DNA of 35,414 nucleotides from Bacteroidaceae bacterium (GTDB lineage: Bacteria; Bacteroidota; Bacteroidia; Bacteroidales; Bacteroidaceae), in assembly GCA_017469685.1 (NCBI GenBank), contig JAFUFW010000038.1, positions 1 through 35,414 of the forward strand, in the 5' to 3' direction. Made by a program: the position numbers and the translations under genes. Under the pieces are notes generated by a model that was not told the DNA's origin, made no database searches, and worked only from the letters and a program-made list of their open reading frames with translations. Of this stretch, positions 4,471-8,923 are shown in pieces; within the stretch, counting starts at the first letter, position 1; the number at the start of each line of letters is the position of its first letter.

Positions 4471-4500
4471 TTGGGACCGGATGTAATATCTCGGTCCCAA
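4471..4500. promoter_or_regulatory. Perfect 9-bp inverted repeat between mutS2 and the ECF sigma gene
   Basis: TTGGGACCG (4471-4479) pairs with CGGTCCCAA (4492-4500) around a 12-nt loop. On the plus strand no T-run follows, so it is a poor intrinsic terminator for mutS2; on the minus strand TATTTTTTC follows. It lies 45 bp before the sigma gene and could be an operator or mRNA structure. Function is not shown by the sequence. Confidence 0.5.
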
Positions 4501-4544
4501 AGTGTGTATATAAGATTAGAGAGACAAGAAAAACAACGTAAGTA

Positions 4545-5132
4545 TTGGCACACAGCTACGGCATCTCCGGCAACGGCCAACATACACAACAGCTGCTCAG
4601 CGGTCTCCGTCAAGGCAACGCTGCAGCACAAAGACAGTTTCTGAAGCTGTACGCACCTGCTGTGTTCAAACTCATCGTGAGAATGACTCACAATGCCCTC
4701 GACGCCGAGGAGCTGACCCAGGACGCACTGCTGAGCGCCATAACTCACATCAACGACTACCAGCCAGCGCAGGCTGCGCTGCAGACGTGGCTCAACCGGA
4801 TTGCCTATCGCACGGCGCTAAACCACATGCGAGGCCACAGCGCAGAAATTGTCTCATTTGACCAATATCCGGCCTTAGGCGCACAGGCCGACGAGGAAGC
4901 CATCAGCAACTACTTCCAGAAAGCCGACAGCACTTTGACAGAGCTCTTGCGCCAGGCGCTCGACCACCTTCCAACAGACGAGCAGACGCTCGTGAACCTA
5001 TTCTACTATGATGACCTTACACTGAAGGAAATAGCCTTCATCATGGAGGCGCCACCCGGAACTCTCGCCACACGCCTCCACAGAATACGAAAACGACTCT
5101 ACAACATCATCCTAAGACTTCAACAACAATGA
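4545..5132 (+). CDS. ECF-type RNA polymerase sigma-70 factor
   Basis: A 195-residue extracytoplasmic-function sigma factor that would direct RNA polymerase to a small regulon, probably including its own operon. Region 2 is visible at about residues 20-90 (FLKLYAPAVFKLIVRM, DAEELTQDALLSA, TWLNRIAYRTALNHMR) and region 4 at about 130-190 (HLPTDEQTLVNLFYYDDLTLKEIA, TLATRLHRIRKRL). The reading frame opens just after an in-frame TAA at 4539; the only start that keeps region 2 intact is the TTG at 4545, so translation may be weak. The stop overlaps the ATG of the next gene (ATGA), indicating translational coupling with a probable anti-sigma/sensor protein. Confidence 0.92.
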   Translation: MAHSYGISGNGQHTQQLLSGLRQGNAAAQRQFLKLYAPAVFKLIVRMTHNALDAEELTQDALLSAITHINDYQPAQAALQTWLNRIAYRTALNHMRGHSAEIVSFDQYPALGAQADEEAISNYFQKADSTLTELLRQALDHLPTDEQTLVNLFYYDDLTLKEIAFIMEAPPGTLATRLHRIRKRLYNIILRLQQQ

Positions 5133-6544
5133 AAACCCCGACACACAACGAAATAGAGAGCTGGCGCCACGATGACGTCAACCTGCGGTGGGCCGTGGAG
5201 CAGCAGAACAAACAGCTGCCCTCATTGCCCGAGGGGTTTGAAGAGAGGATGATGATGAAGCTCAACAACCTCGCCACTCCCGCCGAAGCGCAGCCAGCCC
5301 CGGCCGGAAGCTCGCACAACTCACGCCGCCTGTGGCCATTCGCTGCAGCCCTCTCGGCGGCAGCAATGCTCGCCGTGGCCTACATCATCTTCAGCCCCAA
5401 AGAAACGGCGCAGATTGCAGAAGCCCCAGTCATTGCTCCAGCCGGAGTACTGCCTGAAGACGAAGGAGCCATTGCTCCCGAGGCTCTCGCAACCAACACG
5501 CTTACAACAAAGGGCGACGACATACTTGCGGAGAAGAAGAAAGCCAAGCAGACAGAAGACAAGATGACTTCCACCGCCAGAGCGGCCTTATCTTCAGAGG
5601 CGGTCATAGAAGAGGTTGAAAAAGATGGCGTTGCGATAGATGATGTCGAAGGAAAGACGGAGGCGTCTACCCCTGACTCCACATCAAGCCAATTCACCAT
5701 CGACTTGAATCGCCTCAACCACCTCGTTGCCGAGGCTACAGGTTCAGGACAAGCCGCGAAGAAAGACTATAAATATAATAATGTACGCGCGAGCGAGGGT
5801 GCTTCTCGGGTCACACTGTCCGTCAACATCGGAGCAGACGGCGGATTGCTGGCCAATGTGAGCGACAATGGTATCGAAACACGTAATGCGCGTAATGACT
5901 ATCAGAACAGCAACTTGGCTGATAACTACTATTTGCCCATAGGCAATGGCTACTCCTACGACAACAATAGCGCCGTGATGGTAAAACAATGGCGATACTC
6001 CGATGTATCATATACTTCTTCAAAGTATGCCTCAAACTCTACTACAAGCCACAAACTCCCCGTCGTCGTCGGCATGAACTTGAGCATCCCTATTACTAAA
6101 AAATGGTGTGCCGAGACAGGCCTCTCATACACAAAACTCAGTTCTACGACCGACAATTATGCTAACGGACAGTATATTCACGAATCACAACGTATACACT
6201 ACCTCGGCATACCTCTGCGCGCACAGTTCCGCTTCCTCGACAGCCGCTTCTTCACGGCCTACACCACCGCAGGCGGGAGCATAGAGATACCCGTGAAGGC
6301 CGCATTAGAATCGAGGAGCCAGGTCTGGAATGAGTCATCAACAACCACAACTTCTCTCTCTGCACCCGTGCAGTTCTCCACCACGCTCAGCCTTGGTGCT
6401 CAATTCAACTGCAACAGCCTCTTCGGCATCTTTGCCGAGCCACAGCTTCAATGGTTTGTCCCCACTGGCTCCGACATTGAGACCTACCGCACCAAACATC
6501 CCCTCCGCTTCGTGCCTGCCGTAGGCTTAAGATGGACGCTATAA
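5129..6544 (+). CDS. Putative trans-envelope anti-sigma/sensor: inner-membrane segment plus C-terminal outer-membrane beta-barrel
   Basis: The 471-residue product begins with a charged, probably cytoplasmic segment of about 65 residues containing LPEGFEERMMMKL, a style common in proteins encoded after Bacteroidetes ECF sigma genes. One hydrophobic helix follows (about 69-88, WPFAAALSAAAMLAVAYIIF). Then comes a low-complexity Ala/Glu/Thr/Lys linker (about 90-215). The last 245 or so residues have alternating polar/hydrophobic strands and aromatic girdles typical of the small outer-membrane beta-barrel families (GIPLRAQFRFLDSRFFTAY ... FVPAVGLRWTL). There is no N-terminal signal peptide. The ATGA overlap with the ECF gene supports an anti-sigma role. 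The two-membrane topology is inferred; the C-terminal domain might instead remain periplasmic. Confidence 0.75.
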   Translation: MKTPTHNEIESWRHDDVNLRWAVEQQNKQLPSLPEGFEERMMMKLNNLATPAEAQPAPAGSSHNSRRLWPFAAALSAAAMLAVAYIIFSPKETAQIAEAPVIAPAGVLPEDEGAIAPEALATNTLTTKGDDILAEKKKAKQTEDKMTSTARAALSSEAVIEEVEKDGVAIDDVEGKTEASTPDSTSSQFTIDLNRLNHLVAEATGSGQAAKKDYKYNNVRASEGASRVTLSVNIGADGGLLANVSDNGIETRNARNDYQNSNLADNYYLPIGNGYSYDNNSAVMVKQWRYSDVSYTSSKYASNSTTSHKLPVVVGMNLSIPITKKWCAETGLSYTKLSSTTDNYANGQYIHESQRIHYLGIPLRAQFRFLDSRFFTAYTTAGGSIEIPVKAALESRSQVWNESSTTTTSLSAPVQFSTTLSLGAQFNCNSLFGIFAEPQLQWFVPTGSDIETYRTKHPLRFVPAVGLRWTL

Positions 6545-6570
6545 AATTGAATTATTGATAATTGAAAATA
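6543..6570. repeat. AATTG-type short tandem array
   Basis: Units like AATTGAATTATTGATAATTG fill the gap between the barrel protein and the next lipoprotein gene. The same family occurs at 9700-9725, 10683-10711, 18362-18405 and 25019-25036, always at gene borders. Confidence 0.6.
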
Positions 6571-6588
6571 AATAAAGAACAGACAACA

Positions 6589-7083
6589 ATGAAAAAGTTG
6601 ATTTCAGAATTTTTGGCGTGCCTTCTGCTTGGCACTGCGTTCAGCGCTTGCGATAACGACATGGAATGGGATATATATCCTGTGGTCGTCCGTATTCAAG
6701 TCGTAGACGAAGCCGGCAATAGCCTGCTTACAGACGAGACGGCAAGCCGAATCACCGCAACCTTCCAAGGCGTGACATATACTTGCCGGGAAGATCTCAG
6801 AACGCGGACTTATATGCCCGACTTCTACGGCCTGAAGCTCGAGGGCGACCACCTGCTCTTCGGCGAACTTGACGGCGAGAAAAACTACAACAACGAGCAG
6901 ATCGTTATCGACTGTGGCGACGGCAGCCAACCAGATGTCATCACGCTGAACCACACTTGCAAATGGAAGCTCAACGGCGACCCCAAAATCTCAACCTCAT
7001 TCAAGCTCAATGGCAAGAACGTCAGCGGACAAATCGTAATCCAAAAAGCAAAGAACAGCTGGACGGAATTGGATAATGAATAA
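6589..7083 (+). CDS. Lipoprotein of unknown function, paralogous to the N-terminal domain of the next gene
   Basis: A 164-residue protein with a lipoprotein signal (MKKLISEFLACLLLGTAFSAC, Cys 21) followed at once by acidic residues (DNDMEWD). In Bacteroidetes such acidic residues can act as a surface-export signal, so the protein may sit on the cell surface. The mature domain is about 140 residues of beta-rich sequence with YMPDFYGLKL, LLFGELDG, NNEQIVIDCGDGSQPD and TSFKLNGKNVSGQI. Each of these blocks recurs in the N-terminal domain of the downstream serpin protein. I do not recognise the family. ATG at 6589 is chosen over a TTG at 6562 because it places the signal peptide at the N-terminus. 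It is part of the ECF operon; the next gene starts directly after its stop. Confidence 0.82.
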   Translation: MKKLISEFLACLLLGTAFSACDNDMEWDIYPVVVRIQVVDEAGNSLLTDETASRITATFQGVTYTCREDLRTRTYMPDFYGLKLEGDHLLFGELDGEKNYNNEQIVIDCGDGSQPDVITLNHTCKWKLNGDPKISTSFKLNGKNVSGQIVIQKAKNSWTELDNE

Positions 7084-8784
7084 ATGAAAATGAGAAAGAG
7101 CGTTCTTCTATTGGCGTGCCTGCTGCTGAGCTTTGGCTCCTGCACAAACGGCGACGACTATGACGGCGGTATCATCTGGGACTTCCCGCCAATCATAGTC
7201 AGCATAAAAGTGCTCGACACCAACGGCTACAGCGTGCTCAACAGCGTCAATACGGCCAGCATCACTGCCACCTTCCGCGGCACGCGCTACCACTGCGCCA
7301 AGCGTACACGCGATTATATGCCTACATTCTACGGGCTCACTTTCAGCAACGACTATCTCCTCTTCGGCGAACTTGATGCCACGCAGGCCTACGACAACGA
7401 GCAGATCGTTATCGACTGTGGCGACGACAGCCAACCGGACATCATCACCTTCAGCCACCAGATAAAATGGGAAGGCGGCAGGCCCGTCTACGAGCAGACG
7501 TTCAAGCTCAACGGACAGGTCGTCGACGGGCAGATAACCATACACAAGGACCTGAAGACGACTGAGAATAGCTCATCGCGCCAGGACATACCTGTCAGCA
7601 ACGAAGAGCGTGCCCGCATCAGCCGTCTCAACGACTTCGGTCTGAACCTCGTCAGGCAGATAGCAGACACCTCCGACGCCCCCGACGCCTCTTTCGTTGT
7701 CTCTCCGCTCAGTGTGGCCTATGCCGTGGCAATGATGAGCTTCGGAGCTGGCCTCGGCGAGCAGGAGCAAATGGATGTGTTGCGCGCCTTCACAGGCGAG
7801 GCAGAACCAGACCTGTCGCTCATCAGCACAGACGTCTTCAACAATCTATTTGCGAAACTTATTGAATCGATGCCTCTCACCGACACCAGCGTCAGCCTCT
7901 ATCTGGCCAACGCCCTCTTCCTTCGCAATGATTTCACCCTTTACGCTGGCTACCCTGATTTCCTTGCACGATACTACACCGCCGACTATGGCCTACTCGA
8001 CTTCAGTTCACCAGAGGCTCTCACCTACATCAACGATTGGGGACGCCAGAAGACACACGGCCTCGCAAGCCACATGCTCGATGCCGTAAAGCCTGACGAC
8101 GTGGCTTATTTCCTCAGTGCCCTATACATGAAGGCGCCATGGAGCGAGCCTTTCGACAAGGAAGAGGCGGCACTGATGCCTTTCACCAAGGCCGACGGCA
8201 CCAAAGCCGGAGTCAAGATGATGCGGTCGAGGCACACCGCACCTTTCGCAAGTACGGAGTCATACAAAGCCACCTGTCTGCCTTTCGGGAACGGAGCATT
8301 TGAAATGATTGTCATGCTGCCAGACGAAAACAGCTCCCCGTCGCAACTCCTCAGCGAACTCACGGCCAACCAGATAAGCCAAATCACATGGCGACAGGCA
8401 GACCTCGACATCTTCATGCCCTCATTCAGCATCACATCAAGCCACAGCCAACTCATAGATCAGCTGCGCGAACAGGGCATACGGCGAATGTTCTCTACCT
8501 CCACTTCGTTCGTAAGCATAACCCCAAACAGCGGCTTCAGCGTCAACTTGTTCCAGCAGACGACGGGCATTGCCATAAACGAGAACGGCTGCTACGCCCC
8601 AGAGAGCTCCACGACAACGTCCGGCGCCGGCTCCCATCAGGACTTCTCCTCCGACATCTACGCCGCCTTCATCCCCGACCATCCCTTCCTATTCCTCGTC
8701 CGCGAGACCTCGTCCGATGCCATCCTGCTCGTAGGCACCTACGGCGGTCCACAGGCTATCAACGACGAAGGTTTAGGCGGGTGA
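7084..8784 (+). CDS. Lipoprotein-anchored serpin with an N-terminal domain shared with the preceding lipoprotein
   Basis: A 566-residue fusion. Signal peptide with lipobox Cys 20 (LLLSFGSC) followed by TNGDDYD suggests surface display. Residues about 25-155 repeat the domain of the preceding gene (YMPTFYGLTF, LLFGELDA, DNEQIVIDCGDDSQPD, TFKLNGQVVDGQI). Residues about 180-560 are a full-length serpin fold: NLVRQIADTS, FVVSPLSVAYAVAMMSFGA, LYLANALFLRNDF, ALYMKAPWSEPFD, DHPFLFLVRE. Serpins usually trap serine or cysteine proteases by inserting the reactive-centre loop into a beta sheet; known bacterial examples (such as miropin) protect cells from host or competitor proteases. Here the loop hinge after NENG (499-502) reads CYAPESS rather than the usual small-residue run, and the loop is about seven residues longer than in alpha-1-antitrypsin, so inhibition is uncertain. 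Last gene of the ECF operon. Confidence 0.9.
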   Translation: MKMRKSVLLLACLLLSFGSCTNGDDYDGGIIWDFPPIIVSIKVLDTNGYSVLNSVNTASITATFRGTRYHCAKRTRDYMPTFYGLTFSNDYLLFGELDATQAYDNEQIVIDCGDDSQPDIITFSHQIKWEGGRPVYEQTFKLNGQVVDGQITIHKDLKTTENSSSRQDIPVSNEERARISRLNDFGLNLVRQIADTSDAPDASFVVSPLSVAYAVAMMSFGAGLGEQEQMDVLRAFTGEAEPDLSLISTDVFNNLFAKLIESMPLTDTSVSLYLANALFLRNDFTLYAGYPDFLARYYTADYGLLDFSSPEALTYINDWGRQKTHGLASHMLDAVKPDDVAYFLSALYMKAPWSEPFDKEEAALMPFTKADGTKAGVKMMRSRHTAPFASTESYKATCLPFGNGAFEMIVMLPDENSSPSQLLSELTANQISQITWRQADLDIFMPSFSITSSHSQLIDQLREQGIRRMFSTSTSFVSITPNSGFSVNLFQQTTGIAINENGCYAPESSTTTSGAGSHQDFSSDIYAAFIPDHPFLFLVRETSSDAILLVGTYGGPQAINDEGLGG

Positions 8785-8785
8785 A

Positions 8786-8876
8786 AAAATCAGGCCAAGC
8801 CTTTTGGCAATAACCCTTAAGGGTTTTGGCTATAACCCTTAAGCCTTTTGCCCAAAACCCTTAAGCCTTTTTTTCG
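8786..8876. repeat. Tandem 22-bp repeat, about four copies
   Basis: Directly after the serpin stop, units of about 22 bp with the core AACCCTTAAGCCTTTTG follow each other three to four times; one unit carries AACCCTTAAGGGTT, a perfect palindrome at about 8812-8825. The last copy ends in a run of seven Ts, so it could also act as a terminator for the ECF operon. Related CCTTAAAC-like sequence occurs at 1752-1771 and 12041-12057. The gene-free stretch 8785-9130 holds this repeat, the dispersed element at 8874-8923, a terminator at 8950-8993 and a promoter at about 9091; I see no gene in it. Confidence 0.7.
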
Positions 8877-8923
8877 CTCGGCTCTGCCGCTCCTTTGAGC
8901 GATAGCAAGCCTGAAGAACATTT
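8874..8923 (+). repeat. Dispersed structured element, copy A
   Basis: About 50 bp ending in GCCTGAAGAACATT. It is related to 25041-25091 read on the other strand (roughly three quarters identical by eye). It can fold with an outer stem TCGCTC (8874-8879) / GAGCGA (8897-8902) around an inner hairpin CGGC-TCT-GCCG (8879-8889). Confidence 0.65.

Follow-up and report, generated by a model that had tools for sequence, protein, structure and literature searches.

A Dma-like sigma/anti-sigma pair with a probable serpin output in Bacteroidales

Introduction

Why would a serpin gene stand in one operon with an extracytoplasmic function (ECF) sigma factor and a putative envelope sensor? The question is raised by a contig of 35,414 nucleotides from a Bacteroidaceae bacterium (JAFUFW010000038.1, assembly GCA_017469685.1); this whole stretch is called the window here. 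Four co-directional genes of the window encode an ECF sigma factor, a Dma-like anti-sigma barrel protein, a small lipoprotein and a lipoprotein-serpin fusion (lipo-serpin). A sigma factor, a putative barrel sensor, a lipoprotein and a serpin had been proposed at these places in an earlier, sequence-only reading; the open reading frames bear out all four genes, and Pfam or NCBIfam matches those for sigma factor, barrel and serpin. The operon is probably a signalling unit of the Dma/Das type with a serpin output, in which a Dma-restrained ECF sigma factor drives serpin production.

According to the available part of PMC13088901, Dma proteins of Bacteroides thetaiotaomicron consist of a sigma-binding domain, a membrane helix, a disordered tether and a C-terminal barrel, and are encoded beside an ECF21 sigma factor. 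Cells that lack Dma1 or Dma2 release more vesicles, and the operon of the pair itself ranks among the most induced genes. As in the window, further genes lie downstream of the pair; they have no known function there.

Results

Layout of the barrel protein

The N-terminus of the barrel protein (residues 1–65) is hydrophilic and conserved in ten aligned sequences. Besides Met1, 11 residues are invariant in all ten (E10, W12, D16, L19, R20, A22, P31, L33, P34, G36 and F37), and these fall within the first 37 residues. Hydropathy indicates a single membrane helix at about residues 71–89 (best 19-residue value of 2.09 at residue 71). Basic residues precede this helix, and no hydropathy window elsewhere exceeds 1.0. 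By its composition, the linker at about residues 89–265 (177 residues) is of low complexity (75% P/S/T/A/E/D/Q/G/N/K, 21% hydrophobic). The C-terminal barrel domain PF13568 was matched in 10/10 relatives from the genus and in 11/15 relatives from the order. The sensor probably spans both membranes.

With an adjoining ECF gene, a putative N-terminal sigma-binding part, a membrane helix, a possible tether and a C-terminal barrel, the barrel protein appears to be Dma-like, a likeness that rests on layout. Because this layout matches the published family (PMC13088901, available part), the sigma/barrel half of the operon belongs to a known kind, and the earlier statement that no such system had been described does not stand for this half. 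The window's genus also contains single-frame forms comparable to Dma3 (PMC13088901, available part): at ten loci (L190–L199) sigma factor and barrel are fused in one reading frame of about 530–670 residues. Unlike the Dma/Das loci of B. thetaiotaomicron, those described here have a serpin or lipo-serpin downstream, and the same promoter element stands before serpins elsewhere. The word "serpin" is absent from the main text of PMC13088901 as far as this was available.

Conservation of the neighbourhood in the genus

Serpins are present in 61 of the 139 genomes of the window's genus. Neighbourhoods were read for 100 serpin loci, with the window as the 101st; three serpin matches lie outside these 100, namely G056:C70 (a fragment), G130:C16 (partial) and G019:C32 (a fragment, added afterwards). 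Sigma factor, Dma and lipo-serpin follow each other in 10/139 genomes (the window, G151, G055, G147, G116, G043, G178, G003, G107 and G170). As the genomes counted are related, these counts are not independent. Since the order recurs in nine further genomes, the arrangement is not due to chance. Additionally, in G002 the pair is followed by a serpin that lacks the lipoprotein domain, and at eight genus loci a serpin is divergent from the pair or lies upstream of it. In G019 a contig end truncates the pair, and at contig ends of G018 and G048 there are serpins of the lipo-serpin clade.

A search of a collection of 84,980 species with a single peptide pattern taken from the lipoprotein domain gave 10 loci, nine of which have sigma factor and Dma in front. 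Five bear titles that name the stomach of goat, sheep or water buffalo, three bear RUG isolate names, which we take to refer to a rumen catalogue, and two bear the names of sequencing runs. The module follows a gene that is presumably mutS2-like in 8/10 of these loci; in G116 (L203) it occupies another chromosomal site. In G117 (L204) a lipo-serpin follows the mutS2-like gene without sigma factor or Dma, and in G163 that site is empty.

In a tree of serpin domains, the 19 Dma-adjacent serpins occupy four separate places, requiring 8 parsimony changes (113 rows from 120 domain matches, with domains shorter than about 280 residues excluded; the search was short and some branches are long). In the Dma tree, the Dmas of lipo-serpin operons form one clade, with that of G002 next to it, and the Dmas beside divergent serpins form another. 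By the four places in the serpin tree and the distinct Dma clades, the association has originated, or has been retained, on more than one occasion.

A shared promoter element in the genus

The element TGTAAT-N17-TGTATA lies upstream of the sigma gene in 11/11 operons of the lipo-serpin type (including the truncated G019) and in G002. The window assembly (2.83 Mb) contains three matches, as compared with none for the reversed control. One precedes the operon, the second lies 53 nt before the start of a second serpin on another contig (G000:C66) and the third 37 nt before a likely lipoprotein of 204 residues. Proteins were taken as likely lipoproteins if visual inspection showed a signal peptide that ends in Cys.

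A strict form, TGTAAT-N16-GTGTATA, has 44 matches in 22/139 genomes, versus 11 for the reversed control. Of these matches, 31 fall into the 12 genomes that carry this pair of sigma factor and Dma (in ten the operon is complete, in G019 and G018 a contig end cuts it). Among the 19 of them that do not belong to an operon, six precede another serpin and nine precede likely lipoproteins; the remaining four comprise a repeat copy, a match with a contig end ahead, one with no such gene in reach and one that was left unread. The other 13 matches are scattered over other genomes. They include those of G016 (serpin and lipoprotein), G015 (serpin) and G105 (lipoprotein) and one in G046 that precedes a sigma factor 43% identical to that of the window; seven of the 13 (12 examined) have neither serpin nor lipoprotein behind them. 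G117, which has a lipo-serpin and no such sigma factor or Dma, has no strict match.

Lack of a conserved neighbourhood in related genomes would have refuted the earlier proposal. The neighbourhood is, however, conserved in the genus and recurs across the order (see below); together with the matching promoters in two classes of locus, this supports the earlier proposal that the sigma factor and the putative two-membrane sensor are coupled to a serpin.

Some further features of these promoters were observed. Exact inverted-repeat arms of at least 8 bp surround the −35 element in 7/14 of the sigma promoters listed and in 0/18 other promoters with the element. The arm sequences vary between genomes yet stay complementary; an operator, an insulator or a read-through hairpin is conceivable. 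Lipoproteins of 134–139 residues, alike by eye, follow the same element in G105, G016 and G170 (loci L334, L351 and L361); the one that was scanned has no Pfam match. In G018, a dispersed TGTAATCTGTGTAATCTGTGG-type repeat on many contigs accounts for 14/15 matches to the looser motif and does not look like a promoter.

Recurrence across the order

Serpins were found in 170/393 sampled genomes of the order. From the higher-scoring part of the list, 85 serpin sites were taken, 30 with flanks of 1.5 kb and 15 + 40 with flanks of about 5 kb. Five of the 30 have an ECF gene, each with a Dma-like gene behind it; in one of the five a gene lies between ECF gene and serpin, and the Dma of L271 was recognised by position and layout, not by the first profile. 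At the sites with longer flanks the pair is present in 4/15 and 9/40. Thus, among the 55 serpin regions taken without regard to their neighbours, 13 have an ECF gene within the limit of 400 bp (276 bp at most), and a Dma-like gene follows in 13/13 (10 divergent from the serpin, 3 on the same strand). The profiles matched no ECF or Dma in the other 442 kb of these regions, where the two were thus not seen as a general background around serpins. Altogether, 18 order-level cases of serpin, sigma factor and Dma span 10 families besides that of the window.

A profile of 15 order-level Dmas finds a relative in 101/393 genomes, and in many cases no serpin adjoins the Dma relative. Neighbours were read at the top 30 Dma loci, so the claim of a link to serpins is limited to certain lineages.

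In divergent pairs the gap contains an ECF-type promoter element, GCAACC-N16-CATC, facing the sigma gene and the mirror of this element facing the serpin. The wider form GCAAC(C/T)-N15-17-C(A/G)TC faces the sigma gene in 14/14 and the serpin in 11/14 divergent order-level pairs (a tally that leaves out five divergent genus pairs). In an after-the-fact test with block-shuffled gaps, the expectation is 0.02 for a single direction and 0.0 for the two together. In the 55 regions there are 38 matches to the wider form in 1.11 million bases, counting both strands and including true sites. Two further tests are free of this after-the-fact limit. The GCAACC form precedes the sigma gene in 12/15 Dma loci used neither for the motif nor for the profile (27/30 overall). 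It also precedes unpaired serpins in 10/33 cases in genomes with such a Dma versus 0/34 in genomes without (Fisher 3.7e-4, uncorrected for kinship). As the order element differs from that of the window operon, the DNA specificity of the sigma factor seems to have drifted while the link to serpins stayed.

The operon serpin and its hinge

Inhibitory serpins carry an ExGTEAAAA hinge at positions P17–P9 of the reactive loop (PMC8233489, available part). The corresponding residues of the window operon serpin, ENGCYAPES, do not fit this consensus. Other hinges of lipo-serpins likewise deviate from its run of small residues (ENGCQTGTD in G107 and G048, EKGLGQPDA in G170). An EEGTEAAA-type hinge is present in 18/18 order-level paired serpins, and the second serpin of the window genome has an intact hinge. 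Position P14, usually Thr, is Cys in 9/11 aligned lipo-serpins (window, L099, L156, L160–L162, L164, L174 and L176).

As its hinge is degenerate, the operon serpin was dropped as a candidate inhibitor; it is probably a non-inhibitory surface protein such as a binder, a bait or a sensor partner. The earlier proposal that the operon drives production of a surface-displayed protease inhibitor therefore fits the second serpin and many relatives better than the serpin of the operon. Full-length frames are kept in the window, G107 and G170 despite the loss of the hinge, whereas the frame of G048 is cut by a contig end. The intact frames suggest that these proteins are still functional and probably do something other than suicide inhibition. 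In the Dma tree the window, G107 and G170 group in one clade, which suggests a single loss of the hinge. The serpin tree joins the window, G107 and G048 and leaves G170 outside on a long branch, so it does not settle a single loss.

By sequence, the solved chain closest to the lipo-serpin is 5ncs (E 3.9e-34), and the related entries 5ncw and 5nct are named miropin. Miropin comes from Tannerella forsythia and, like the operon serpin, is a serpin of Bacteroidales. The operon serpin differs from miropin by its degenerate hinge and by the lipoprotein domain that precedes its serpin domain. Miropin is reported to inhibit both host and bacterial proteases (PMC6718151, available part). The available parts of PMC6718151 and PMC8233489 contain nothing on the regulation of miropin.

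Tandem double-serpin proteins of about 820–910 residues also recur in the genus (L088, L091, L097, L110, L116, L121, L124, L129 and others).

The lipoprotein domain

The small lipoprotein and the N-terminal domain of the lipo-serpin had been described as sharing a fold. This holds as homology: the two are 55–56% identical in protein and 67% identical in DNA (248/368 aligned bases), and the stand-alone gene thus looks like a duplicate of the domain in the fusion. The domain is present in 18/139 genomes of the genus. The earlier reading had asked whether serpin or small lipoprotein co-occur with the barrel and ECF genes. The serpin recurs beside them; among the ten genomes with sigma factor, Dma and lipo-serpin, a stand-alone lipoprotein between barrel and serpin was seen in the window alone.

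No convincing Pfam match, no NCBIfam match and no PDB sequence match was found for the domain. The one Pfam match of the small lipoprotein is by chance (E 0.19), and 19 relatives of the domain gave just three single-member matches (E 0.01–0.1). An identity as a NigD-like lipoprotein is not supported, as no NigD family model matched. All 11 lipo-serpins have a Cys in the lipoprotein domain, and frequently another near the C-terminus.

Details of the window operon

The coordinates are given in Table 1. The start codon of the sigma gene is TTG (position 4545); relatives with the same type of operon have GTG or ATG in this place. Among the NCBIfam matches listed for the sigma factor, the general ECF model alone passed its cut-off, and a scan for consensus sigma-70 promoters upstream of the gene gave no site. 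Overlaps or zero spacing had been claimed throughout. This is correct for the sigma and barrel genes, which overlap by 4 nt, and for the small lipoprotein, whose stop directly abuts the start of the serpin fusion, but not for the barrel and lipoprotein genes. The latter are separated by 44 nt with the start ATG 6589 (17 nt with TTG 6562), and ATG 6589 is most likely the start. Several near-identical copies of AACCCTTAAG lie right after the serpin gene (window positions 8800–8880).

Table 1. Features of the operon in window coordinates
Feature	Position	Strand	Basis or remark
ECF sigma factor (Das-like)	4545..5132	+	PF04542 2.6e-14, PF08281 9.6e-14 (regions 2 and 4), TIGR02937 4.9e-27
Dma-like anti-sigma, barrel protein	5129..6544	+	Domain layout and conserved N-terminus
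Outer-membrane beta-barrel domain PF13568	5978..6409	+	Pfam E 5.4e-11, above cut-off
Small lipoprotein, unnamed domain	6589..7083	+	Open reading frame; homologous to N-terminal domain of the fusion
Lipoprotein-serpin fusion	7084..8784	+	Pfam serpin match; PDB sequence match
N-terminal lipoprotein domain of the serpin fusion	7174..7548	+	Homologous to 6589–7083
Serpin domain PF00079	7627..8742	+	Residues 182–553, E 1.4e-65
Reactive-loop hinge, degenerate	8581..8616	+	ENGCYAPESSTT where EEGTEAAAVT is expected
Predicted autoregulated ECF promoter TGTAAT-N17-TGTATA	4482..4510	+	Element common to sigma upstream regions of relatives
Inverted repeat TTGGGACCG / CGGTCCCAA around the −35 element	Arms 4471–4479, 4492–4500	.	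No role assigned

Discussion

In the proposed mechanism, the barrel would reside in the outer membrane, the disordered tether would cross the periplasm and the protein would pass the inner membrane once, with a cytosolic N-terminus that binds and holds the ECF sigma factor, as the layout of the family suggests. An event at the outer membrane or the surface, plausibly proteolysis, would free the sigma factor. Judging from gene order and promoters, the freed sigma factor would recognise the promoter of its own gene as well as copies of the element that precede serpin and lipoprotein genes, and more serpins and lipoproteins would be presented at the surface. The second serpin of the window genome, encoded on the other contig, would be the regulon member whose hinge is intact.

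A wider reading is more tentative. The system may be a dedicated anti-protease response of Bacteroidales, in which barrel and disordered tether report surface proteolysis to a cytosolic sigma factor, and this factor controls a regulon of serpins, in cis as well as in trans, in at least 11 families. The operon serpin of the ruminant-gut clade would then have ceased to be an inhibitor and become a surface element that serves the same pathway without inhibiting proteases.

Several observations weigh against a sigma-Dma unit with a serpin output. Regarding the linkage, 42/55 serpin regions have no ECF-Dma neighbour, and of 15 Dma loci that scored high without being part of the profile, four have a serpin within the 1.5-kb flank. 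The operon serpin of the window, probably not an inhibitor, counts against such a unit, too. The sigma profile derives from the window's genus and could overlook other ECF factors, four of the 13 neighbouring Dma genes had served as seeds for the Dma profile, and the serpin sites sampled were the higher-scoring ones. Regarding the promoters, both motifs were first noticed by eye. Neither the genus nor the order element is present in the gap of any of the remaining eight pairings of a serpin with sigma factor and Dma in the genus. The order element is missing in front of 7/18 order-level paired serpins (11/18 have it). It was the only element sought in the three same-strand order pairs, and none of these has it before serpin or sigma gene. 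Furthermore, 23/33 unpaired serpins in genomes with such a Dma lack the motif, and the contrast with the other genomes weakens to 10/33 versus 3/34 (p 0.027) if GCAACT is allowed.

It is possible, if doubtful, that Dma/Das mainly serves vesicle formation or upkeep of the outer membrane, with serpins and lipoproteins as cargo among other targets and with a signal other than proteases. The increased vesicle output after loss of Dma1 or Dma2 (PMC13088901, available part) is consistent with such a role, as is the genus promoter before likely lipoproteins that have no serpin domain. A general role of this kind does not, however, predict that the serpin neighbour recurs in four separate serpin lineages within the genus and, beyond it, in 10 further families of the order, a survey which covered serpin neighbours only.

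Alternatively, the lipo-serpin may be a part of the sensor instead of an output. Its surface domain would touch the barrel, and cleavage by a protease would prompt Dma to release the sigma factor. The lipoprotein domain occurs with sigma factor and Dma and without a serpin in G124, G032 and G130 (order lipoprotein-sigma-Dma; L181, L182 and L183), and the full-length frames retained after the hinge loss would suit such a part. A place in the sigma factor's own operon suits an output as well, however, and the contact is hypothetical, so we regard a sensor part as unlikely.

Slightly less likely still is that an ECF factor other than that of the operon reads the TGTAAT-TGTATA promoters. The second serpin of the window genome has an ECF gene (L332 72–617) roughly 1 kb upstream, with small open reading frames in between. 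The genus motif also stands before a serpin or likely lipoprotein in three genomes without the operon (G016, G015 and G105), where another ECF factor may read it; this counts against the serpin-output unit, too. On the other side are the motif before the operon's own sigma gene in all lipo-serpin-type operons and G002, the 31/44 strict matches in the 12 genomes with the pair and their absence from G117. It is very unlikely that the serpin neighbourhood is a chance passenger kept by shared descent: most carriers of the module in the genus share the mutS2-like neighbourhood, so that a large part of the genus-level count goes back to a single inheritance, and many Dma relatives have no adjoining serpin, but separate serpin lineages, the second chromosomal site in G116, differing gene orders and matched promoters in cis and in trans argue against it.

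A serpin output of a Dma/Das-type pair remains the favoured explanation, and it appears to be undescribed in the literature searched. This literature contains no description of a serpin tied to an ECF sigma/anti-sigma pair; the first report on Dma lies outside its coverage and may or may not mention serpins. A related logic, from envelope signal to serpin, is known from Bifidobacterium breve, which has a protease-inducible serpin operon under a two-component system. That system differs from the one in the window: it belongs to a Gram-positive organism with no outer membrane and is not known to involve a sigma/anti-sigma pair. The term "two-component" is absent from PMC6718151 as far as its text was available.

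The module is found in a group of ruminant bacteria, where the switch seems, from gene order and matching promoters in relatives, to turn on surface serpins. If true, this would be a rare case of bacterial serpins under transcriptional control. A link between Dma and serpins opens two questions, what Dma senses and why many Bacteroidales carry serpins, to direct tests: candidate targets can be read from the promoter elements, and an obvious candidate signal is protease challenge.

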